Shown in pieces: positions 10,880 through 50,017 of a stretch of 64,000 nucleotides of DNA (positions are counted from its first letter, which is position 1; each line of letters begins with the position of its first letter). Both the position numbers and the translations under genes were made by a program. This DNA is from Marinobacterium stanieri. GTDB taxonomy: Bacteria > Pseudomonadota > Gammaproteobacteria > Pseudomonadales > Balneatricaceae. Where the stretch lies: the NCBI RefSeq assembly GCF_900155945.1, contig NZ_FTMN01000003.1, positions 434,001 to 498,000 of the forward strand. The letters run 5' to 3'. The notes below the pieces were generated by a model, which worked only from the letters and a program-made list of their open reading frames with translations, ran no database searches and was not told the origin of the DNA.

Positions 10880-11594
10880 TCATCCAGGCTGTCGCCGCAA
10901 TAAATATAGAAAAGCCGGTACACCTAATAGCGCACACAAAACACCGACGGGCAGCTCAAAAGGCTGCACCACTACACGACCGACCAAGTCTGCCAGGGAT
11001 ACCAACAGGCTTCCGATCACAGCCGCCACCATCAATTGACCTGGCAAGAACCCGGCGACCAAACGGCGCGCCATATGCGGCACCACCAAACCGACAAATC
11101 CGATGGGGCCAGCCACAGCAACTGCACTGGCCGCCAACAGCGTGGCCAACAGGAGTATTGCGGCACGCCAGCGCCCCAGATTAAGCCCCAGCCCCAGCAC
11201 CTGCTCATCGTTGAGCCGTAACAAACTCAGCGGTTTCAGCACCAGAACCGCACCCAGCAATCCAGCCAGCGACCAGGGCATAATCACCTCCAGGTGCTGC
11301 CAGCTTCTTCCATGAAGACTACCCGCCAACCAGGATACGAGAGTCTCCGTATGCGCCTGCCCCCATAACGCCAATACGCCGGTTACCAGGGCGCTGAGAA
11401 TCGCGGCGCAGATCACGCCGGTCAAAATCATGCGCAAGGGTGTCAGCCGACTGCCACCACTCAGGGTATAAACCAGCAGCGCTGCCAAAAAACCGCCCGC
11501 ACAAGCACCTAAAGGCAGCCAGTTCAGCAATTGATCGCCCTGCCAATACAGTCCAGTAGCTGCAGGCAAAAAAGTACCTGCCACTACCATCAAC
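10880..11594 (-). pseudogene. FecCD-family permease, 3' part (disrupted by prophage)
   Basis: C-terminal ~237 residues of a FecD-type iron-siderophore permease, from MVVAGTFLPAATGLYW to the stop. It contains the family hallmarks LVAGFLPGQLMVAA and GLVVPHMARRL, and the closing ELPVGVLCALLGVPAFLYLL. The gene is cut at 11594 by the prophage left end; its 5' part lies at 48724-49046. Joining both parts and removing one copy of the ATCAAC repeat gives 344 codons (343 aa) in frame. The visible ORF continues into phage DNA to a fortuitous start at 11662, which is chimeric. FecD crosses the inner membrane and pairs with FecC. Confidence 0.93.
11589..11594. repeat. Left target-site duplication (attL side), ATCAAC
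   Basis: ATCAAC immediately precedes the phage left terminus TGTTTAGAGG. The same six bases follow the right terminus at 48724-48729. Both lie in the reading frame of the split fecD gene, which is restored when one copy is removed. A length of five bases is possible if one terminal base belongs to the phage, but TG...CA termini favour six. Confidence 0.9.
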
Positions 11595-15463: not shown

Positions 15464-16636
15464 TCACACCCCCTTGATGAGGTCAGCGGTCAGTTTTGGG
15501 ATGCCGAGTTGAGCTGCTTCATTCAATGCAGCCGTTACGACGTTATGAACCGCCAGGGGGTACAGCGCAGAGAACCCCTGTCCGGTGAGTTTGGTGCGCA
15601 GTGCTTCGATAGCGTTGGCGTCCATGAGCTTGCTGAGGTCCGCGCCGGCAATCTGGAAGCGGTGTTGCAGATAGCCTTCCAGATGTGAATCCAAGGGGCG
15701 CAGCGTGACGACTTCACAGCGCTGCACGATCTCACGCACACGCGGGTTGCGTTCATCCAGACGGCGACCCAGCTCGGTCTGGCCAATCAGGATGATGGAG
15801 AGCAGTTTGTTGAAGCCGTCTTCCAGCTCATAGAAGCGTTTCAGGTGTTTGAGGGTGGCGATTGGCATGCCGTGGGCCTCCTCAATGATCAGCACATGGC
15901 GGTTGCCGGCACGGAAACTTTCCAGCAAAGCCTCATGACACTGGCGGAAACGAGCTTCAGAACTGGCTTTGATCTTTTCGCCTGGGGCTACCGAGCGCAT
16001 GATGGATTCAGCGATATGGCCTGATTTCAGCGTCTTGCCGCGCTCGTCCGATTCCTCCATACCCAGCACGTAGGGCTCGATCAGGATGACCGGGTCATGC
16101 TCATTGGCTGCCCAGGTAGCCAGATCCTTACGCAAGGTCGATTTACCAGCACCTGACTCCCCAACAATCGCCATGAACGTGCCGAACTTGGCACCCGAGC
16201 GCATGGACTCACGCACATAGCGAATATCGTGTGTCAGATACACCTCTTCAGCAGCACGCACCTCCGCGAACGGGTCGCGGAACAGCCGGAAGGTGCGTTT
16301 GGTCTCTGGTTTGAGGGTCTGTTTGCGTAGTAGCATCAGGTTCTCCAAGTTATGGTCTTGCTCAGCGTTTGGGTTATGGCTTGGGGCCGTCCTCTGGGTT
16401 GGAGCCAGAGGGCGGGCTTCAAATTCGAACAATCCTTTCTCCTGATATGGCTGCAGGCCATTGGCGCGCAGGATGTCGATAATCTCGGCCTGGAAATCTT
16501 CAACGGTGCGTGACTTCGGCCACTTGTTGTAACGAACCAGCTGCGTAATCGTTGCCGGGGACAGATGTACCTGGCGGGCAAGATCGGATTTCGTGAAATC
16601 CAACGACGTCAGTACCCGATCAAGACGCATAGACAT
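15464..16636 (-). CDS. Transposition protein B (MuB-like AAA+ ATPase)
   Basis: 390-aa AAA+ ATPase that should bind target DNA, deliver it to the transposase and confer target immunity. An N-terminal helix-turn-helix is visible at residues ~14-37 (SDLARQVHLSPATITQLVRY). Walker A GESGAGKST is at 159-167, Walker B HVLIIEEAH at 247-255, and the sensor region IILIGQTELG follows. It is longer than Mu B (312 aa) and of the ExeA/TniB-like type found in B3-group phages. Its start overlaps the transposase stop, so A and B are coupled. Confidence 0.93.
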   Translation of the reverse strand: MSMRLDRVLTSLDFTKSDLARQVHLSPATITQLVRYNKWPKSRTVEDFQAEIIDILRANGLQPYQEKGLFEFEARPLAPTQRTAPSHNPNAEQDHNLENLMLLRKQTLKPETKRTFRLFRDPFAEVRAAEEVYLTHDIRYVRESMRSGAKFGTFMAIVGESGAGKSTLRKDLATWAANEHDPVILIEPYVLGMEESDERGKTLKSGHIAESIMRSVAPGEKIKASSEARFRQCHEALLESFRAGNRHVLIIEEAHGMPIATLKHLKRFYELEDGFNKLLSIILIGQTELGRRLDERNPRVREIVQRCEVVTLRPLDSHLEGYLQHRFQIAGADLSKLMDANAIEALRTKLTGQGFSALYPLAVHNVVTAALNEAAQLGIPKLTADLIKGV

Positions 16637-18399
16637 TACTCACCTCCAACCGCTTTCAGCGTCGTGGGTTTCATGCGGCGCATAGCGGCTTCAATGCTGG
16701 GCAGGTCATCTTCGGTGACACCCTCGGGATAACGCTGAACCAGCCAGTTGTAGTGTTCACCCGTCCATTCATCCCCAAACTTCGGACGCAGGCGGCGGGC
16801 GATATCGATATGGTTCAAGCGAATGGCCTGAACAGTGGGTGCCTGCACATCAAGCTCAGTACCGCGCTTGGGCAGGTAATCCGGTAGCTGGGTATCGGTG
16901 ATGGGTTTCATCGGGTCCAGCTCACCGGCAAATGGAGTTGCACCACGTTTGCGCTTCTCGGCAGCATCCGTGTCGGTGTCAGCGCCCATAGAAAGGCGTT
17001 CCACCTCTTTGCGGTTTGTATCCAGGGCCGTATCAGCGTGGCTGCGGAATGTTTCGCCAATCACAGGCGCATCCACCGGGAAGCCGTACTCATTCATTTC
17101 CTGAGCCTGAACCAGTTGCATGACTTCACGGCCGTCTTCGTCCTTGTAAAGCACACCTGCCACATCGTCATGCCAGGGGTTACGAGTGACTTCCAACTGC
17201 ATGCCAACCTGAACGCCAGGAATATTGGCCACGGAGTAGGTGCGGCTGCGGAAGCTGACTTCCAGCTGTACTGTTACTTTGCGCACTTCCGGCTTGCTCA
17301 TTGCCACCGCGCGGATTACCTGGGCTTCAGGTGCAATGATCAACTGATCGGCTCGGATCGTCTGCCAAACCGCATAACGGGTTTTGCCGGTGCGGCTGTG
17401 TGTTTTAGTGCCGTTGAACCAGGTCATCCAGTGCTCAACAGCGGCATTCAGCTCGTCCAGACTGGTGGGCGGCTGTGCCAGAAACTTCAGTCGATGTTCA
17501 AAGGAGCGTTCGACAATATCGTTTGCTTTTTCCACCTGGCCTTTTGCCCAAGGTTGACCCGGCACATTCACCTGAAGGTGAATGCCCAGCGCTCGACACG
17601 CGTTGCGAAACACCGCACCGGTGTTGGCGCTGCCAGGGTCGACCATCACCACTTGAGGGATACCGTGGAAGGGATCGCCATCACGCTTAATGGCGGCGTG
17701 AATAAAAGCGGTCAGCAGGTTGATACCGCTCTCAGCCCCCAGCACGTAATGCACGAAGATCACGCCACTGGTGTGGTCGGTAATCACGTAACGCCAGACA
17801 CGCTCCTTTTCGATGCGACGGATGTTGCCCGGTTTGTTTTTGTAGAACTTCGCCTCATCCATCACCTGGAGCGCTTCACCGGCCTTGGTGGGCAGGTAAT
17901 AGAGCACGCACAGTGACGGGTCGATCTGCCACACGTGGTTCGGATGCTTGCTGGCCAATACCTGCTTGGGTGTCGGGCGGCGTAGCTGCTCCGGGTGCAG
18001 GTTGTACTGGTAAAGCGCGCGATTAATAGCCGACAGCGATAGTGGGCAAAACTCACCGGTCTCGTCATCAATCCGCCCAGCCTCGATTTCACCGTTAGAG
18101 CGCAGAACATCCACGGCATCCTCCAGGGATGACAGCCGCTTATTATTCTTGCGGCGGCTGTCCATCATGTAGGCCGATATCTTCTTTGCATCATTACGGG
18201 ACAGCGCACTCTGCCCGGCGTCTTTACGGCGTTTACGATTGCTTGGGCGGATCTCCGACAGTTGGCGCAGCAGTGTATGGATGCTCACGCCTAGTTGTTC
18301 GGCAGCAGAAGCGTAAATCTCTTTCTTGCCGCCATGACCGGCCTGATCGGCACGTTGTGCCACGTCGAGCAGGAACTGCCCCTGTGCCAAGGTATTCAT
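16636..18399 (-). CDS. Transposase A (MuA-like DDE recombinase)
   Basis: 587-aa transposase of the rve/Mu family that cleaves the phage ends and joins them to target DNA. The catalytic acids are visible: D160 in HVWQIDPS, D254 in VVMVDPGSANT, and E290 in AKGQVEKAND. The beta-barrel domain follows the core (around VTVQLEVSFRSRTYSVANI). An N-terminal helical DNA-binding region precedes the core. The C-terminal tail (DDLPSIEAAMRRMK) may contact the ATPase. It is shorter than MuA (663 aa) and lacks an obvious separate enhancer-binding domain. It overlaps both neighbours by 1-4 bp in the early operon. Confidence 0.95.
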   Translation of the reverse strand: MNTLAQGQFLLDVAQRADQAGHGGKKEIYASAAEQLGVSIHTLLRQLSEIRPSNRKRRKDAGQSALSRNDAKKISAYMMDSRRKNNKRLSSLEDAVDVLRSNGEIEAGRIDDETGEFCPLSLSAINRALYQYNLHPEQLRRPTPKQVLASKHPNHVWQIDPSLCVLYYLPTKAGEALQVMDEAKFYKNKPGNIRRIEKERVWRYVITDHTSGVIFVHYVLGAESGINLLTAFIHAAIKRDGDPFHGIPQVVMVDPGSANTGAVFRNACRALGIHLQVNVPGQPWAKGQVEKANDIVERSFEHRLKFLAQPPTSLDELNAAVEHWMTWFNGTKTHSRTGKTRYAVWQTIRADQLIIAPEAQVIRAVAMSKPEVRKVTVQLEVSFRSRTYSVANIPGVQVGMQLEVTRNPWHDDVAGVLYKDEDGREVMQLVQAQEMNEYGFPVDAPVIGETFRSHADTALDTNRKEVERLSMGADTDTDAAEKRKRGATPFAGELDPMKPITDTQLPDYLPKRGTELDVQAPTVQAIRLNHIDIARRLRPKFGDEWTGEHYNWLVQRYPEGVTEDDLPSIEAAMRRMKPTTLKAVGGE

Positions 18400-20874: not shown

Positions 20875-20919
20875 CGGGGAAACCGAAGGTGTTGAAGAAA
20901 GTGGTCATAGCGGCGCACC

Positions 20920-21189
20920 TCAAGCAACGGCATATTCTTGATGAGCGTGGTTTTTTAACCCGCGAGCAACCGCATCCAGCGATAGCTTCATGCCCAGCTT
21001 GACTGCAATGTCGTGGGATGCACCGCGAGAGCCCTTAAACTGACCATTGATGACCATGTAAACCTTGCGGCGGTCGTAGTCATTGGCTTCGGCCCAAGTA
21101 GAAATCGGCACACCGGCAGCCTCGAATAGGGCTTTGACTTCGGCCCCGGTGTAAGGAGTTGTTTTAGGCAGCGGATACGGAATATTCAT
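20920..21189 (-). CDS. BcepMu gp16-family DNA-binding protein (Ner/Cro position)
   Basis: 89 aa. The core TGAEVKALFEAAGVPISTWAEANDYDRRKVYMVINGQFKGSRGASHDIAVKLGM matches the BcepMu gp16 family of small phage HTH proteins. It is the first gene behind the early promoter, with a CAGGAG ribosome site, the position of Ner in Mu and Cro in lambda. It is therefore the likely lytic repressor of the switch; that role is inferred from family and place. Confidence 0.82.
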   Translation of the reverse strand: MNIPYPLPKTTPYTGAEVKALFEAAGVPISTWAEANDYDRRKVYMVINGQFKGSRGASHDIAVKLGMKLSLDAVARGLKNHAHQEYAVA

Positions 21190-21224
21190 AGGGCGCTCCT
21201 GCGTCTTAGAAGTGTGTGAATCAG

Positions 21225-21253
21225 TTGTAGCGTGTGTGTGACTTAAATATAGG
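21225..21253 (+). promoter_or_regulatory. Putative rightward repressor promoter
   Basis: TTGTAG (21225-21230), 17-nt spacer, TATAGG (21248-21253). Transcription would begin near 21260, inside the palindromic operator, leaving about 26 nt before the repressor ATG. This arrangement implies autoregulation. Confidence 0.55.
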
Positions 21254-21275
21254 AGTACTGAGTACTCCTAGTCAA
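21246..21275 (-). promoter_or_regulatory. Leftward early promoter
   Basis: Minus-strand -35 TTGACT (plus AGTCAA, 21270-21275), 18-nt spacer and -10 TATATT (plus AATATA, 21246-21251). The spacer is almost exactly the palindromic operator. This is the best sigma70-like promoter in the phage and faces the early operon. Confidence 0.8.
21251..21269. promoter_or_regulatory. Palindromic operator of the lysis-lysogeny switch
   Basis: Perfect 19-bp palindrome AGGAGTACTGAGTACTCCT. It fills the spacer of the early promoter and overlaps the -10 of the repressor promoter. An extra half-site GGAGTACT recurs at 21292-21299 within the first codons of the repressor gene. Confidence 0.82.
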
Positions 21276-21285
21276 GGGTATTTTT

Positions 21286-21879
21286 ATGTCTGGAGTACTT
21301 TCGGCTCAGCTGAAGGAGTTAATGACGGCTGTTGGGTGCAAGCAGAAAGGCTTGGCTGAAGTCATGGGCGTGAGTGTGGATCGCGTAAAAAACCTGACTC
21401 GCGGCAGAGCTTTGAATCTTACGCGGGAAGAAAATGAAGCATTGATCCGCAAGCTCAATGTTCGTGCGGAATGGCTCGCAACAGGGGAAGGTGAAATGTT
21501 CCGCTCTGATGGTGAGAAGGAGTTAGAACGTCGGCTGGGTGCTGTGGCGAATGCAACTGAAAAGGCCCAAATAACAGGCTTGGATACAGAGGCCCAGACT
21601 CGTGTGCAGATGCTACTTACTGGGCTGGAGATCGGTAATGCCGACTTGGTGATGGAGGCTTTGAACGTTCTGTCGGTTGATGAGCAGCAATTGATCGACT
21701 GCTACCGACAAAGCGCTCCTGAAGGCAAAAAAGCCCTACGTTCAACTGCCAGCGTGTTTGCCAAGAGCGGTGGCAGAGTGTCAAACAAAGGCAGCATCAT
21801 TGATAGCGGGGGCGATACGTCTTTTAGCGTTTCCGGTAATGGCAATACTGTAGCGGGGCGCAATTTCATCAAGAAGTAA
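21286..21879 (+). CDS. Prophage repressor (XRE-type HTH)
   Basis: 197-aa repressor expected to keep the early promoter silent. The N-terminal HTH is LKELMTAVGCKQKGLAEVMGVSVDRVKNLTRGRALNL, followed by LNVRAEWLATGEGEMF, a common phage-repressor continuation. The middle part is helical (VNVLSVDEQQLIDCY-like). The C-terminus is a short beta-repeat tail (SFSVSGNGNTVAGRNFIKK) rather than a LexA-like peptidase domain. No Ser-Lys autocleavage dyad is apparent, so induction is unlikely to be by RecA-stimulated self-cleavage. It heads a rightward run of genes reaching to 24240. Confidence 0.88.
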   Translation: MSGVLSAQLKELMTAVGCKQKGLAEVMGVSVDRVKNLTRGRALNLTREENEALIRKLNVRAEWLATGEGEMFRSDGEKELERRLGAVANATEKAQITGLDTEAQTRVQMLLTGLEIGNADLVMEALNVLSVDEQQLIDCYRQSAPEGKKALRSTASVFAKSGGRVSNKGSIIDSGGDTSFSVSGNGNTVAGRNFIKK

Positions 21880-21892
21880 GGATGGATATGAC

Positions 21893-22342
21893 ATGGAATT
21901 GGACGTTGATGGAATCAACAACCGGGTGGCCGGAAGGGACTTTTACCAAATACATAATGCACATGGCCGGCTGCTTACCAAAGATGAACGCAAGGAGCTT
22001 AATGACCGAGTTCAAGCGTTGTTCCTGCAATATGAGGAGCCGCCGTGGGAGACCTGGCGCACGATCCACCGGGTAATCGGTGTCGAAGGTGCAGCTGAGC
22101 TTCGCCTGGATCACCGTGATCAAGTTGGGTTCATCCTTGATCTGTTGGAAGAACGTGGTGATCTAAAGTCTCGGTTGAATGTTACTGCCGAGCCTGAATC
22201 ACATTTGCGGAGCGAATCTGAAACACCAGAACACACAGTTTCAAGGGGGGGAGTCATCTCTTGGATGATGGAATTCCCCGAATATTCGGGGCTTCTGTTC
22301 ATAGCGGGTATCACCTTTGGGGTTGTCCTGGGCATGGTCTAA
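21893..22342 (+). CDS. Hypothetical lysogeny-region protein with C-terminal membrane helix
   Basis: 149 aa, starting at the ATG at 21893, 13 bp after the repressor stop. The N-terminus (INNRVAGRDFYQIHN) repeats the VAGRxF motif at the repressor C-terminus. The middle (LLTKDERKELNDRVQALFLQYEEPPWETWRTIHRVIGV) is helical. The last ~25 residues form one membrane helix (YSGLLFIAGITFGVVLGMV). Function unknown. Position suggests expression with the repressor in the lysogen. Confidence 0.7.
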   Translation: MELDVDGINNRVAGRDFYQIHNAHGRLLTKDERKELNDRVQALFLQYEEPPWETWRTIHRVIGVEGAAELRLDHRDQVGFILDLLEERGDLKSRLNVTAEPESHLRSESETPEHTVSRGGVISWMMEFPEYSGLLFIAGITFGVVLGMV

Positions 22343-22351
22343 GGAGGGAAA

Positions 22352-22636
22352 ATGATTCGTGTAATTTTGTTATTGGGCTTTATGGCTTTTGCGCTCTACG
22401 TCCTGTTTGGTGGCAAAGGTGAAAGTGGCAGCAATACGGTAATGGGTGGTGAGTTCCGTTCTTTGCGTAGCTGCTTGACTAATATTGAAACCAGCTCCGG
22501 TCTTGGCTTGGATGTAATCATAGATAAACCTGACAATGTGACGGGGCGTCTGGAAGGCACCAAGAGAAACTTTGCCTGCACGAAAAAGGAGACTGGCACC
22601 AAGGGTGTCTACTGGGATGGCTGGTACGAGCCGTGA
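22352..22636 (+). CDS. Small membrane-anchored hypothetical protein
   Basis: 94 aa with an N-terminal membrane segment or uncleaved signal (VILLLGFMAFALYVLFGG), then a small soluble domain with two cysteines (RSLRSCLTNIE, RNFACTKKETG) that could pair outside the cytoplasm. GGAGGG precedes the ATG. Unrecognised; lysogeny-region accessory gene. Confidence 0.65.
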   Translation: MIRVILLLGFMAFALYVLFGGKGESGSNTVMGGEFRSLRSCLTNIETSSGLGLDVIIDKPDNVTGRLEGTKRNFACTKKETGTKGVYWDGWYEP

Positions 22637-22665
22637 AGTGACTGTTAACAACTGGACACTTTAGG

Positions 22666-22815
22666 ATGCAGATTTTTAAAGCTTTTGCTGGCCGAATGCT
22701 CTGCTTTATCGTAGGCCACCGCTGGAAGTTCCAGGCAAAAAACGAATGCGGAAAGGTGTTCAAGTGCGAGCGCTGTGGGGTTGTGTACGGCACGAATGTT
22801 GGTCGCATTAGATGA
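22666..22815 (+). CDS. 49-aa zinc-ribbon-like phage protein (DUF1660-like)
   Basis: Short ORF: MQIFKAFAGRMLCFIVGHRW, then KFQAKNECGKVFKCERCGVV and YGTNVGRIR. The GHRW...CGKVFKCERCG pattern, a hydrophobic start followed by a CxxC-type ribbon, resembles the small prophage proteins of family DUF1660. A TTAGG ribosome site precedes the ATG. It is too short for standard ORF cutoffs but its composition and context support it. Function unknown. Confidence 0.6.
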   Translation: MQIFKAFAGRMLCFIVGHRWKFQAKNECGKVFKCERCGVVYGTNVGRIR

Positions 22816-22863
22816 GACTGAAAAACGTGCTTTGGGATAGCAGATAGCTTTAAGGAGAAAAGG

Positions 22864-23784
22864 ATGCCTGTAAATGTTAAGCGTGTGTGGTGTGATTTTT
22901 TTCAATGTCAGATCATTAACAGTCGTGCTGACCTGCCTGCACGCACTATGGAGCAAGTGTTTGAGCAGCTACTGACCCAGCACCGTTCCCCTGATCAAAA
23001 CACCGTTCGCGAACTTGGAGGGAAAGCTTATGAGCTTCGGGATATAGAAACCACTAGCACGGGTTACCGTGGTGTAATAGCCAAATATAAGAAAGCCGAT
23101 CTGCCCCATGCGGCGATTCCCGGAGGAGAGGAGCGTGAGCTTGACTTGGCGGAGGATGAGCAGCTTCTTGATAAGACGTTTTTCTCATATTACTCGGACT
23201 ACGCCCTCATTATCCTCCAGCGAAACCGCTTTGCTATCAATCCAATGAGGTTTGGCCGTTATCTCTCGCAAGGTGGATATAATGTCAGCCTCAACCCGAT
23301 CATTGAGGCTGCTGATCTACGCCGGCTTATGGCTGATGATGTAAATATCCGTGTGGCTGAAATTTCAATTGCTCGCCCAACCAATCCAGCTTTGTTTGAA
23401 GGTTTGGAACACAACTTCAATAACTCAATCATGCAAAGCCTTGGTGTATCCAATGCAGCTAAAATAAATTTAACCATGCGGGGAGATGGACATTCCGACA
23501 GTCCAGAACAGCGCTATCTAGACTCTGGGCTTAAGCGTGCATTCTTAGAAATGAAAGACAGGTTTGACGTATCAAAGGCTCAGCTTGAGCTGGAAGATGC
23601 TGGAGGAGTCGTTCACCCTCTTGATCTAGTAACAGACCGGCTGGTATACGATGAAGTGATAGAGTTTGATGGGCGTTATCCTTCTGCCAGTCGAATGCAA
23701 GAGGTCATAGACAACGCCCGGAACGTGAAAGAGCCTGAGATACTCAGTTACTTTGGCGCCCTTGATGAGACACGTATAGGCTGA
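22864..23784 (+). CDS. RexA-like phage-exclusion protein
   Basis: 306 aa (lambda RexA is 279), soluble, with a strong AAGGAG site. Compared by eye with lambda RexA from memory, the centre aligns: LAEDEQL at 95-101 with RexA LADDESL, an FF...D pattern then a YL..GG segment (133-138) with its FLIGKG, ADDV at 157-160 followed by I.R.T (169-173), and a shared F..I...LG segment (185-194). C-terminal residues include PLDLVTDRLV and GRYPSASRMQEVI. In lambda RexA senses infecting-phage DNA complexes and activates RexB. The neighbour downstream is RexB-like and the pair follows the repressor, as in lambda. Similarity is remote; a Kiwa KwaB-type protein is the main alternative. Confidence 0.6.
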   Translation: MPVNVKRVWCDFFQCQIINSRADLPARTMEQVFEQLLTQHRSPDQNTVRELGGKAYELRDIETTSTGYRGVIAKYKKADLPHAAIPGGEERELDLAEDEQLLDKTFFSYYSDYALIILQRNRFAINPMRFGRYLSQGGYNVSLNPIIEAADLRRLMADDVNIRVAEISIARPTNPALFEGLEHNFNNSIMQSLGVSNAAKINLTMRGDGHSDSPEQRYLDSGLKRAFLEMKDRFDVSKAQLELEDAGGVVHPLDLVTDRLVYDEVIEFDGRYPSASRMQEVIDNARNVKEPEILSYFGALDETRIG

Positions 23785-23790
23785 ATTGTA

Positions 23791-24240
23791 ATGAAACAAA
23801 TTGTCATCGTTGTTGGTGTTGCTTTCGCCAGCGGCATAGCTTATCTGAGCTGGCAAGTTGTCCCAGGGTTTGGGCGAGATGTAATTCAGCCTATTGCATC
23901 AACCATGGCGAGCGTTGCGGGGGTATTATTCGGTTTTGTTTTGGCCTCTCTTACTATTCTGGCTTCAGCAAGCGGGAACAAGCTGGTCGAGAATACAAAG
24001 AAAACGAAATATTTTGAAAAACTTGTACACAGGCTGCACGTTAGCATGGGGCTATTGATTCTTGTGTGCTTGAATTTCTTGGCTGTTTTGTTTGTGCCTG
24101 AATCGGTGATGGCTCCTTTCATGACTGAAACCAAGTTGCTTTCGCTGGTCTTGGTGAGTGGTGTGTTCTTTTTTTCTATGGCTCTATTCGTTTTTTTAGC
24201 TGTCTGGCACGAGTTTTCCCAATTCACCAAAAATATGTAA
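23791..24240 (+). CDS. RexB-like four-helix membrane protein
   Basis: 149 aa (lambda RexB is 144) with four hydrophobic segments at about 2-21, 38-60, 82-103 and 115-139. Between the second and third is a basic cytoplasmic loop (NKLVENTKKTKYFEKLVHRL). The second helix reads SVAGVLFGFVLASLTIL and matches RexB (SYAGTMIAILIAALTFL) in the AG....LA.LT pattern. It starts 6 bp after the RexA-like stop with a poor ribosome site, implying translational coupling. RexB is an inner-membrane effector that depolarises the cell. KwaA of Kiwa has a similar four-helix plan and is the alternative. Confidence 0.6.
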   Translation: MKQIVIVVGVAFASGIAYLSWQVVPGFGRDVIQPIASTMASVAGVLFGFVLASLTILASASGNKLVENTKKTKYFEKLVHRLHVSMGLLILVCLNFLAVLFVPESVMAPFMTETKLLSLVLVSGVFFFSMALFVFLAVWHEFSQFTKNM

Positions 24241-24282
24241 ATTACTGGCTACAAGCCAAAGCAATTTGACGGCCTGAACTGA

Positions 24283-24307
24283 TTTTGCCCCCGTTCAAAT
24301 TACTCCC
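24283..24307 (+). promoter_or_regulatory. Late-operon element, copy 1 (lysis operon)
   Basis: TTTTGCCCCCGTTCAAATTA followed by CTCCC. The same 25-bp block, with one change each, recurs at 32260-32284 and 38455-38479, always 45-85 nt before the first gene of a rightward late operon. Candidate binding site of the Mor-type activator or part of the late promoter. Confidence 0.7.
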
Positions 24308-24316
24308 CCGTAGATA

Positions 24317-24358
24317 GGCGTCATTCTCTGACTGTACCCACAACAGTCAGAGGACGCC
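24317..24358 (+). other. Strong stem-loop abutting the holin start codon
   Basis: GGCGTC, bulge ATT, CTCTGACTGT, loop ACCCACA, ACAGTCAGAG, GACGCC: a 16-bp stem with a 3-nt bulge. It ends 3 nt before the ATG at 24362 and includes the only ribosome-site-like sequence (AGAGGAC). It may control translation or protect the 5' end of the lysis mRNA. Confidence 0.7.
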
Positions 24359-24361
24359 GAC

Positions 24362-24715
24362 ATGCTGCAGAACTTCCTTTCTAAACTCCCCATTCCACGC
24401 CTGGTTGTCTGGCTGATTGTCAGTGTGGCACTGCTGGCAGGCATCGCCCTGGTCAGCCCTCAGCAGCTGCCCGTGGTGCTGTATAAGATTGCGCTGGTCA
24501 CTATCGCAGCGGTGCTGGCGTACTGGCTGGATCGCACGCTGTTTCCCTATGCCCGACCTCATGAGCTCTTTGATCAAGCGACTCGTCGCCAGGAAGGCTA
24601 TACCCAGCATGACTGTGAACGAGGCTCGACGATCCGTTGGTCAGCTAACATCGCTACCCTTCGTCGCGCTCTAATCGTCCTCGCCTGTGTGCTGGGCCTG
24701 ACGCTGGGGCTGTGA
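24362..24715 (+). CDS. Putative holin
   Basis: 117-aa small membrane protein with three hydrophobic segments (LVVWLIVSVALLAGIALV, VVLYKIALVTIAAVLAYWL and IVLACVLGLTLGL). It resembles the 2/3-TM holins of Mu-like and Pseudomonas phages. It is the first gene of the lysis module, followed at once by the transglycosylase and the spanins. It is thought to permeabilise the inner membrane at the end of the lytic cycle. Confidence 0.78.
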   Translation: MLQNFLSKLPIPRLVVWLIVSVALLAGIALVSPQQLPVVLYKIALVTIAAVLAYWLDRTLFPYARPHELFDQATRRQEGYTQHDCERGSTIRWSANIATLRRALIVLACVLGLTLGL

Positions 24716-24717
24716 CC

Positions 24718-25368
24718 ATGAAGGACTTCATCAATCACATCTTTGGCACCCGCGTGCCCACGCCCATTGTGTGGGTGGTCATCATCCTGACTCTGCTGGT
24801 GAGCTGCTGGGCGTCAGCATCCAGCATTCCCGTTGCAGCCAAACAGTACCAGCGCACGCTTATACGCAGTGCCCATGCCTATTGGGGACTGAATGCGCCG
24901 ATCGCCACATTTGCGGCTCAGGTTCACCAGGAGTCCCGTTGGATGCCGAAAGCGGTGTCTCGGGTGGGTGCTCAGGGCATGGCGCAGTTCATGCCGGCCA
25001 CGTCGTCCTGGATCGCCGAGATCTACCCCGATGCACTGGGCAGTAACCAGCCGCTGAATCCCGGATGGGCGCTGCGTGCATTGGTGATCTATGACCGTTG
25101 GATTCTGACGCGGGTAACCGCTGCAGATAACTGCAATGCCGTTGCCATGATGCTGTCTGGCTATAACGGCGGACTGGGCTGGGTACACCGTGATCAACGC
25201 CTGGCGTCGGCTTCTGGGGCCGATTCTGCCACGTGGTTTGACAGTGTTGAGCAGTACACCAGCCGTGCGGATTGGGCGCGCCGGGAGAACCGCCGGTATG
25301 TGCGCTTGATTCTGCTGCGCTGGGAGCCGCTGTATGAAGCCGCAGGCTGGGGAGCTGGATCATGCTAA
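24718..25368 (+). CDS. Phage lytic transglycosylase (endolysin, SLT type)
   Basis: 216 aa with an N-terminal signal-anchor (PIVWVVIILTLLVSCWA) then a Slt domain: catalytic Glu in AAQVHQESRWMP, the GAQGMAQFMPATSSWI motif and MMLSGYNGGLGWV. It should cut peptidoglycan glycosidic bonds. The anchor suggests a SAR-type or membrane-attached endolysin that can reach the periplasm without passing through a holin hole. Start ATG at 24718, 2 nt after the holin stop; a GTG at 24712 is an alternative. Confidence 0.9.
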   Translation: MKDFINHIFGTRVPTPIVWVVIILTLLVSCWASASSIPVAAKQYQRTLIRSAHAYWGLNAPIATFAAQVHQESRWMPKAVSRVGAQGMAQFMPATSSWIAEIYPDALGSNQPLNPGWALRALVIYDRWILTRVTAADNCNAVAMMLSGYNGGLGWVHRDQRLASASGADSATWFDSVEQYTSRADWARRENRRYVRLILLRWEPLYEAAGWGAGSC

Positions 25369-48729: not shown

Positions 48730-49046
48730 ACAGCAGCAAGGCTGGCCCCTGCACTGATCCCGAGCACACCCGCATCGGCAAGCGGGTTTCGGCTCAGCGT
48801 TTGTAGCAGGTATCCCGACACGGCAAGGTGCATCCCAACCAGCACAGCCAGCAGTGCACGAGGCAGGCGCAACTCCCATATTACTCTGCGCGCGTGCTCA
48901 CTCCCCTCACCAGCCAACACCGACAACACTTCCGGTATGGAAATAGAGGTTGCACCCAAAGCCAGACTTAAGGCCTGCACGACAGCCAGCGCCAAGAAGA
49001 ATAAAAACAAGCCGGCCCATAGCGGCATCAAAATCTTTGTTTTCAT
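48724..49046 (-). pseudogene. FecCD-family permease, 5' part (disrupted by prophage)
   Basis: N-terminal ~107 residues of the permease whose 3' part is at 10880-11594: MKTKILMPLWAGLFLFFLAL, then IPEVLSVLAGEGSEHARRVIWELRLPRALLAVLVGM and NPLADAGVLGISAGASLAAVL, all family signatures. Its reading frame now runs about 60 codons into the phage right end (to 48543), so the lysogen would make a truncated hybrid with three membrane helices. Its ATG overlaps the fecC stop. Confidence 0.93.
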
Positions 49047-50017
49047 ACCGACCTCCCCATGCCGCTGCGAATCAGGCTAAGCAGCCAGGGACCTCCCAAT
49101 AGAGCCGTCATTACGCCCAGAGGTATCTCCTGCACGACCGGCGGCATGCGTGCCAGCACATCCGCGGCCAGCAACAGCAAGGCGCCCAGCAGTGCGTTCA
49201 TTGGCAACCAAAAAAGGGACTGTGCAGACAAAAATCGACGTGTAATGTGCGGCACAACAAGGCCAACAAACCCAACGGGGCCGGCAACGATGACCGTTGC
49301 AGCTGTCATCACCACAGCCAGTACCATAAAACCCAGGCGCCACGCCGAGACATTGGCGCCAAGACTTCGGCCGATGGCATCATCCAGCAGTAACAACCTG
49401 TAGTGACGGCTCAGCAAAAGCACCAGCAGTAATGGCGCTATAGCCCACCAAAGAACAGAATTTAGCTGCTGCCAGCCACGGCCACTCAAGCCTCCGGCCA
49501 GCCAGAAAAAAAGCTCTCCCGCTTCAGCCCCGGAAAACACCAGCAAGCCGGTCATCACCGCTACACACACCGAACTCATGGCAACACCGGCCAGAACAAC
49601 TCGTATTGGCATCAAACCGTTTTTCCAGGCCAGAGCAAAGGTCAAACCGCCAATCAGCAGCCCACCACTGATGCCTGCCAGCGGATACCAACCGGCATCC
49701 ATTGAAAACAACGTTGACAGTATGACCACCATACAAGCTGATCCAGCGACAACACCGGTCAGGTCCGGGGCGGCTAACGGGTTTCGAGTCACCCCTTGCA
49801 TGACGCCACCCGCTGTAGCCAGCGCCGCACCGACCAACAGCGCAATCAGTGTACGCGGCAAACGCAATTCCCAAAGCACAATTATCTGCACCCGATCACC
49901 CTGCCCCAGCAGAATCTGCCAAAGGTCCAAGGGCATCAACACCTGCGCACCCAGCATTAGAGACAGCAGGAGCATCAGGGCAATTGCCAACACTCCGGCA
50001 GCGATTTTAAATTTCAT
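49043..50017 (-). CDS. Iron-siderophore ABC transporter permease (FecC type)
   Basis: 324-aa inner-membrane permease with about 9-10 helices. FecCD signatures are ELRLPRTLIALLVGAALATAGGVMQGVTRNPLAAPDLTGV near the N-terminus and GPVGFVGLVVPHITRRFLS later, which includes the ATPase-contact loop. It would pair with the FecD-type permease to form the channel for a ferric siderophore. It is translationally coupled to fecD (ATGA overlap) and follows fecB by 8 bp. Intact, but its partner is broken by the phage. Confidence 0.94.
   Translation of the reverse strand: MKFKIAAGVLAIALMLLLSLMLGAQVLMPLDLWQILLGQGDRVQIIVLWELRLPRTLIALLVGAALATAGGVMQGVTRNPLAAPDLTGVVAGSACMVVILSTLFSMDAGWYPLAGISGGLLIGGLTFALAWKNGLMPIRVVLAGVAMSSVCVAVMTGLLVFSGAEAGELFFWLAGGLSGRGWQQLNSVLWWAIAPLLLVLLLSRHYRLLLLDDAIGRSLGANVSAWRLGFMVLAVVMTAATVIVAGPVGFVGLVVPHITRRFLSAQSLFWLPMNALLGALLLLAADVLARMPPVVQEIPLGVMTALLGGPWLLSLIRSGMGRSV

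Follow-up and report, generated by a model that had tools for sequence, protein, structure and literature searches.

A probable RexAB-type exclusion pair behind the repressor of a B3-like prophage in Marinobacterium stanieri

Rex systems and the prophage that carries the pair

Lambda Rex was the first abortive-infection (Abi) system to be tied to anti-phage defence, and the 2026 report on RexABpp of Pseudomonas putida calls its activation unexplained and counts only five described Rex-type systems (PMC12894663). In RexABpp, according to that report, both genes are needed for defence and RexApp binds DNA. When RexApp is overexpressed, part of the population stops growing and its membranes become permeable, both in a RexBpp-dependent way and without depolarisation as followed by DiSC3(5); in the experiments it describes, two-hybrid assays gave no RexApp–RexBpp binding, and RexApp supplied in trans did not restore defence (PMC12894663). 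As for transposable phages, a study of Mu-like phages cites rexAB to illustrate accessory genes (PMC4378225), and the B3-like phage Fc02 is known to have exclusion genes of other types.

The window, the whole stretch of 64 kb analysed here, holds a B3-like (Mu-like) transposable prophage. Its transposase shares 49–52% identity with transposases from phages of Pseudomonas, Klebsiella and Escherichia, JBD25 for example (best 20 of 58 matches), and an IMG/VR contig with the same locus covers window positions 10880–49046, as mapped by coordinates. The features of interest are the following:

15464–16636, leftward: DNA-transposition protein (phrog_296)
16636–18399, leftward: transposase (phrog_310)
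20920–21189, leftward: Ner/Cro-like HTH protein (phrog_925), the nearest gene of the divergent leftward run
21286–21879, rightward: CI-type repressor with HTH, which opens the rightward run
21893–22342, rightward: 149-aa protein, second gene of the run, with a phrog_5825-like N-terminus and, by eye, one C-terminal hydrophobic segment
22352–22636, rightward: 94-aa protein, third gene of the run, with an N-terminal hydrophobic segment by eye
22666–22815, rightward: 49-aa ORF with the look of a CxxC zinc ribbon, between the third gene and A (weak phrog_2670 match, E 2.5e-4)
22864–23784, rightward: gene A, 306 aa, RexA-type, phrog_7651/DUF6731-like, the proposed sensor
23791–24240, rightward: gene B, 149 aa, RexB-type membrane protein, the proposed effector
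24319–24359, no strand: inverted repeat with 17-nt arms (82% complementary), a 7-nt loop and no T run
24362–24715, rightward: holin (Holin_2-3), start of the lysis genes and outside the A–B cassette

The principal reading, to which we assign a probability of about 0.7, is that A and B form a RexAB-type abortive-infection (superinfection-exclusion) system of this prophage, from a lineage outside the Pfam families RexA and RexB.

The gene layout described in the first-pass annotation was confirmed. Two rightward ORFs, one of 306 aa and soluble, the other of 149 aa with four predicted membrane helices, lie 6 bp apart, and they close a run of genes in which the CI-type repressor comes first: the rightward order is repressor, three small ORFs, A, B, holin and lysis genes, and head and tail genes, with the holin gene starting 121 bp downstream of B. 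The repressor matches phrog_2328, a repressor family, at 8.8e-9; its Pfam HTH matches are below the cut-offs, and no S24 protease domain was found in it by Pfam. The 94-aa protein has no family match in the Pfam or PHROG scans, and the 49-aa ORF is additional to the genes given at first pass. A short motif is common to the C-terminus of the repressor (GNGNTVAGRN) and the N-terminus of the 149-aa protein that follows it (NNRVAGRD).

With a G+C content of 46.3%, against 54.9% for the prophage, the pair fits the picture of an accessory cassette. Other annotated genes occupy this slot, from the repressor region to the lysis genes, in JBD25 and PhiKM, and the six phage records matched by A or B (E ≤ 0.01) are absent from the best 20 of the 58 transposase matches. 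A consensus scan of the + strand from 20900 to 24800 returned no promoter-like site, and the terminator-like sites on that strand, at 22276 and 23735, are no more than shuffled sequences give. The inverted repeat between B and the holin gene is a possible boundary or regulatory site; three other loci (L011, L017 and L092) likewise have inverted repeats where B ends or behind it. At the right end of the prophage lies a leftward gene of 324 aa (49043–50017) that matches phrog_12197 (1.5e-66), a family without assigned function.

The two proteins beside RexA and RexB

A matches phrog_7651 at 1.6e-59 and B matches phrog_8552 at 4.8e-26, which places the pair beyond chance; both families are without an assigned function. 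The frame of A was stop-free in 0 of 2,000 base shuffles, and the gene is preceded by TTTAAGGAGAAAAGG. Against DUF6731 (PF20505), A scores 24.6 and 24.1 bits in two scans, under the Pfam cut-off of 27, which is passed by seven of the eight relatives scanned (AUS531phi, cdtI, 733R5, L015, L056, L058 and L059); the eighth, the Vibrio copy, gives no Pfam match to DUF6731. A has no NCBIfam match.

For B, the predicted helices recur in the AF2 model, which also has four (pLDDT 90.1). Pfam RexB (PF15968) is not matched. Among 5,027 PADLOC defence models, RexB is the sole one matched by B at E up to 10 (5.5e-4), and this model is matched by three of five B proteins, namely those of the window, AUS531phi and the Vibrio phage but not those of cdtI and 733R5. 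Alone, this match would be thin, because B also draws weak, chance-like NCBIfam matches to transporter models (0.0028), far below cut-off.

Profile searches in both directions go further. An HMM of 12 RexB sequences, none from A–B loci, was run against 3,954 ORFs (all loci collected by then, plus the window). After 18 RexB ORFs, 35 of the 53 partner-B ORFs ranked before the first unrelated ORF, near-duplicates being included in the counts of this and the reverse ranking; E-values were 6.9e-7 to 0.11 for these 35, 0.004 for window B and 0.13 for the first unrelated ORF. In reverse, an HMM of partner-B proteins placed 15 of the 18 RexBs before the first unrelated ORF (0.097). With an HMM built from eight lambda-like sequences alone, an unrelated ORF came at 0.82 and then window B at 1.0; since lambda-like RexBs by themselves rank window B behind an unrelated ORF, the divergent RexBs (L060, L112–L114) act as a bridge. 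Profile–profile alignment by hhalign gives 54.5/53.8 for B and RexB (E 8.4e-9), against 19.4/20.2 for reversed profiles and at most 18.1 in 100 shuffles, and the crossed controls score 11.4 (A–RexB) and 13.7 (B–RexA). One further family, phrog_17119, is touched by both B (6.1e-7) and lambda RexB (0.034). The RexB motif seen by eye at first pass, S.AG followed by six residues and [LI]A.LT.L, and after it the basic loop that joins helices 2 and 3, proved to be in register with RexB. On these profile comparisons, B is homologous to RexB.

The structural search of BFVD with B gave no match at E ≤ 0.001. Its first row comes from phage ctylc9, which also supplies the best BFVD match of A (E 2.6e-17), and in third place stands a Sbash protein of 165 aa (probability 0.98, E 0.15), probably gp31 to judge by length among the Sbash genes compared within 23–32 kb. 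The basic loop of B (residues 57–80) holds five lysines and two glutamates and, by the positive-inside rule, should be cytoplasmic; in Sbash gp31, the central cytoplasmic loop is reported as needed for defence (PMC6426596).

The link between A and RexA appears significant but remote, and weaker than that between B and RexB. Pfam RexA (PF15969) is not matched by A at E up to 1, PADLOC RexA is matched by none of five A proteins (window A at E up to 10), and in plain hmmsearch neither the A HMM nor the RexA HMM recovers the other family at E below 1 (best 1.3). With hhalign, profiles of 40 A-type and 13 RexA-type sequences score 43.2/44.3 over 257/253 columns (E 1.6e-5 to 2.7e-5), in an alignment that spans nearly the whole protein length; reversed controls score 16.5/15.6, and 99 shuffles at most 22.6. 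Smaller profiles (26 and 5 sequences) give 36.9, and any shuffled control at either profile size stays at or below 22.8. The wider A profile leaves out the truncated L097 and L099, duplicates or doubtful-start frames (L079, L081, L086, L088 and L090) and near-duplicates. Adding actinophage RexAs to the five-sequence RexA profile brings the signal of A down to chance (E 0.096); lambda-type and divergent RexA/B were chosen as seeds because the actinophage proteins weaken the signal.

The RexA motifs proposed at first pass fared unevenly. LA[DE]DE.L is in register, and so is I...LG in one alignment, whereas DDV and I.R.T are out of register with lambda RexA in profile and pairwise alignments and are therefore weak evidence.

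In the AF2 model of A (pLDDT 88.8, pTM 0.83), seven strands run up to residue 145, residues 161–268 form four longer strands, one short strand and four helices, and the C-terminal helix is broken at 289. The published RexA is described as having a globular domain that is split and carries a seven-stranded sheet, a dimerisation domain of four strands and four helices, and a kink in its last helix (PMC11077077). Model and description thus appear to agree in element order, a comparison made without superposition. In Foldseek, the best PDB rows for A are RdgC, CENP-L, Iml3 and CENP-N (best 50 of 436), with E from 1.7e-3 upward, none at E ≤ 0.001, and TM of about 0.2–0.3 (RdgC about 0.3); the authors of the RexA structure report RdgC, IML3 and CHL4 as relatives of RexA (PMC11077077). 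RexA 8twq, present in the PDB, is absent from those best 50 of 436 rows. Another structural match of A (E 7.4e-5) is BFVD entry A0A482MSH0, the "Exonuclease" of Escherichia phage PTXU04, whose annotation may merit checking.

Would such a protein bind DNA? A is acidic (pI 5.0, against 8.6 for lambda RexA), which disfavours it. The actinophage RexA-type proteins Sbash gp30 (pI 6.1) and CarolAnn gp44 (pI 5.6), though acidic, are reported to bind DNA (PMC11077077), and six positions of A (K6, K74, K76, K104, R163 and K224) are basic in 31–39 of 40 relatives, K76 in 39 of the 40 and both K104 and K224 in 38. These acidic DNA-binding proteins and conserved positions would temper the point against DNA binding.

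Relatives, distribution and the place behind the repressor

Viral contigs, GTDB genomes, sampled genomes and phage records yielded 59 A proteins in 42 clusters at 90% identity, a count made without the IMG/VR copy of the window, 18 of the 45 IMG/VR loci (L027, L031–L043 and L048–L051) and L119. By comparing HMM matches with positions, a partner-B ORF was found to adjoin A in 40 of the 42 clusters; in the other two (L023 and L097), the contig ends 0 and 52 bases after A. Co-occurrence of the two genes in other genomes, on which the first-pass reading had been made to depend, is thus the rule. The carriers are transposable, lambdoid and tailless phages, together with apparently chromosomal loci, and the 21 loci of one genome scan include Nitrosomonas, Idiomarina, Pseudomonas, Halomonas, Enterobacter, Serratia, Stenotrophomonas and Marinobacterium.

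Named phages carry the pair as well. In the Pseudomonas aeruginosa phage AUS531phi, the order is repressor–A–B; in the E. coli phages cdtI (orf54/53) and 733R5, A–B lies on the opposite strand, with Q to one side and lysis-side genes to the other; and in Vibrio phage PE001, classed in Tectiliviricetes/Vinavirales, a tailless group, it lies beside an annotated integrase (L005:1389–2896). Families (phrog_7651 and phrog_8552) and gene order are as in the window in all four. Their B proteins have four helices like window B, that of AUS531phi only if its start is moved upstream of the annotation, and the pairs of cdtI, 733R5 and the Vibrio phage lie away from a repressor, unlike that of the window. 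Identity to window A is 30% for AUS531phi, 16–18% for cdtI, 16% for 733R5 and 17–19% for the Vibrio protein.

Per genome, the A family is sparse, as the low counts in genus, class and phylum samples indicate. A homologue was found in one of eight genomes of the window's genus (its own), in two of 369 in the class sample and in seven of 398 in the phylum sample (both including its own), and in two of 298 in the genus of the P. putida locus (including that locus); plasmids gave no A homologue at E ≤ 1e-3. Pfam RexA was found in one of 229 genomes of the class, and the RexA profile in 0 of 298 in the genus of the P. putida locus, a figure that carries no weight on absence.

Three loci deserve mention in their own right, their neighbours being judged by eye. 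In Halomonas colorata (L083:3092–4815), UmuDC-like genes lie upstream of A–B; at L059:131–1036, a third gene of 301 aa follows A–B directly, near an alaS-like gene; and L060:888–2202 holds RexA (PF15969, 7.6e-63) and a RexB-like gene that overlaps it, with nothing that is obviously of phage origin within 3.7 kb.

How often does the pair stand behind a repressor? Upstream candidates were chosen by eye, and 20 were scanned with Pfam. Seventeen (10/10 and 7/10) were repressor-like, two of them at the RexA-type loci L112 and L113; the candidates of L011 and L024 are below the Pfam cut-offs, and that of L022 is an S24 fragment. The remaining three neighbours matched HSDR_N, DUF932 and a methylase, one of them (L081) at another AUS531phi-type copy. 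A repressor was found upstream in at least 16 of the 42 A clusters, the window included, with none identified in the other 26; 16 is a lower bound, because some clusters are short of upstream sequence and only part of the upstream ORFs was scanned. In ten of these 16, the repressor has an S24 domain, which is of the LexA type and self-cleaving. Between repressor and A there are zero to three genes; those of L092 include one that runs leftward and looks methylase-like by eye. Other copies of A–B have lysis genes as neighbours or an apparently chromosomal setting.

This placing, in the window and at least 15 other clusters, could also suit a different role, in which the Rex-related pair tunes the lysis–lysogeny switch, A binding operator DNA and B modulating it, with exclusion as a by-product. 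Lambda RexA is reported to bind DNA and, without needing RexB, to favour the lytic state; no correlation is reported between DNA binding by RexA and T4rII exclusion (PMC11077077). We nevertheless consider this role unlikely, given the copies seen away from any repressor (beside opposite-strand lysis genes or an integrase, or apparently chromosomal) and the report that rexABpp left repressor promoter activity unchanged in P. putida (PMC12894663).

Proposed working and comparison with known systems

The first-pass claim of a diverged Rex-type system in a B3-like prophage is supported by the reciprocal RexB profiles, the A–RexA alignment, the pairing and the repressor-linked place. From this kinship we infer exclusion of phages by the pair. 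Both proteins would be made in the lysogen, from the distal part of the repressor transcript. A would be a two-domain protein of the RexA/RdgC type that forms a clamp by dimerising at its four-stranded domain, and might be triggered by DNA or DNA–protein structures of a superinfecting phage, as its fold, lambda RexA and RexApp suggest. Activated A would then contact B, probably at the basic cytoplasmic loop, and B would oligomerise or open in the inner membrane, so that the cell ceases to grow before the superinfecting phage is able to multiply. A RexB-dependent membrane effect has been described by others for related systems such as RexABpp (PMC12894663); because permeability arose there without DiSC3(5) depolarisation, membrane damage with growth arrest is favoured here over simple depolarisation.

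The roles could be reversed, with A as the antiviral or toxic protein that B holds at the membrane until infection, a logic described for gp30/gp31 of mycobacteriophage Butters (PMC12894663); gene layout alone fits either arrangement. The reversal seems improbable for A–B, in that RexABpp, CarolAnn and Sbash are reported to require both partners, with the membrane protein as effector as in lambda (PMC12894663), and the basic loop of B resembles the defence-essential loop of Sbash gp31 (PMC6426596).

Less probable again is an unrelated moron, in which an RdgC-like DNA-binding protein and a small membrane protein, such as a holin-like one, came to resemble the Rex layout by chance. The remote similarity of A to RexA and the position of B, 121 bp upstream of a holin gene, would agree with it; the reciprocal B–RexB ranking speaks against it, as does the fact that A and B each match their own Rex partner and not the other (11.4 and 13.7 in the crossed alignments). 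Kiwa-type defence (KwaA membrane protein with KwaB), named at first pass as the competing reading for its superficially similar layout, in which a soluble protein of ~300 aa neighbours a four-helix membrane protein, was rejected and is very improbable: neither A nor B matches a KwaA or KwaB model in PADLOC at E up to 10, where the RexB model is matched instead, or DUF4868, which we take to be KwaB, in Pfam at E up to 1.

Taking the RexAB-type reading beyond this prophage, we think it somewhat more probable than not that phrog_7651/DUF6731 and phrog_8552 together form a branch, widespread but unrecognised, of a RexAB superfamily in which lambda RexAB would be a single twig; such systems would be built from an RdgC/CENP-type DNA-clamp sensor and a four-helix membrane effector. 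The literature searched yielded no mention of DUF6731 or of cdtI together with orf54, and among the matches listed, judged by title or the start of the abstract, no assignment of the A–B family to Rex, PMC12894663 (RexABpp) aside. How new A–B is depends on whether RexABpp, compared by description only, belongs to the same family. If the pair is Rex-type, some 40 unannotated pairs become comparative material on how RexA senses and RexB acts, among them pairs from E. coli phages, open to testing in laboratory strains, and the slot between repressor and lysis genes of B3-like phages would be a place for defence genes.

Among known proteins, RdgC, CENP-L/Iml3 and CENP-N, the best PDB rows for A, may share the fold of its domains but are cellular recombination and kinetochore proteins, and no RexB-like partner is known for them. 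The actinophage systems Sbash gp30/gp31 and CarolAnn gp44/gp43 are two-gene prophage exclusion systems, as proposed for A–B; their Rex proteins have no Pfam match at E up to 1. RexABpp (PP_5643/PP_5644 of P. putida prophage P1) is likewise a pair from a Gram-negative prophage, behind a CI-like repressor with two genes between, and as described it combines a four-helix membrane effector with a RexA-type partner, DNA-binding in its case; RexBpp, of at least 181 residues (mutant Y181H) against 149 in B, is like B by description only (PMC12894663).

Unlike lambda Rex, A–B stands outside PF15969/PF15968 (lambda RexA and RexB are in other Pfam families and in PHROGs 12654 and 14878), A is acidic, three small ORFs follow the repressor, and the carrier is a transposable B3-like phage. 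What the two share is the order of a soluble and then a membrane protein, of similar sizes (RexA 279 aa and four-helix RexB 144 aa; A 306 and B 149), the place behind a cI-type repressor, apparently the domain order and, in the model of A, a C-terminal helix that breaks.
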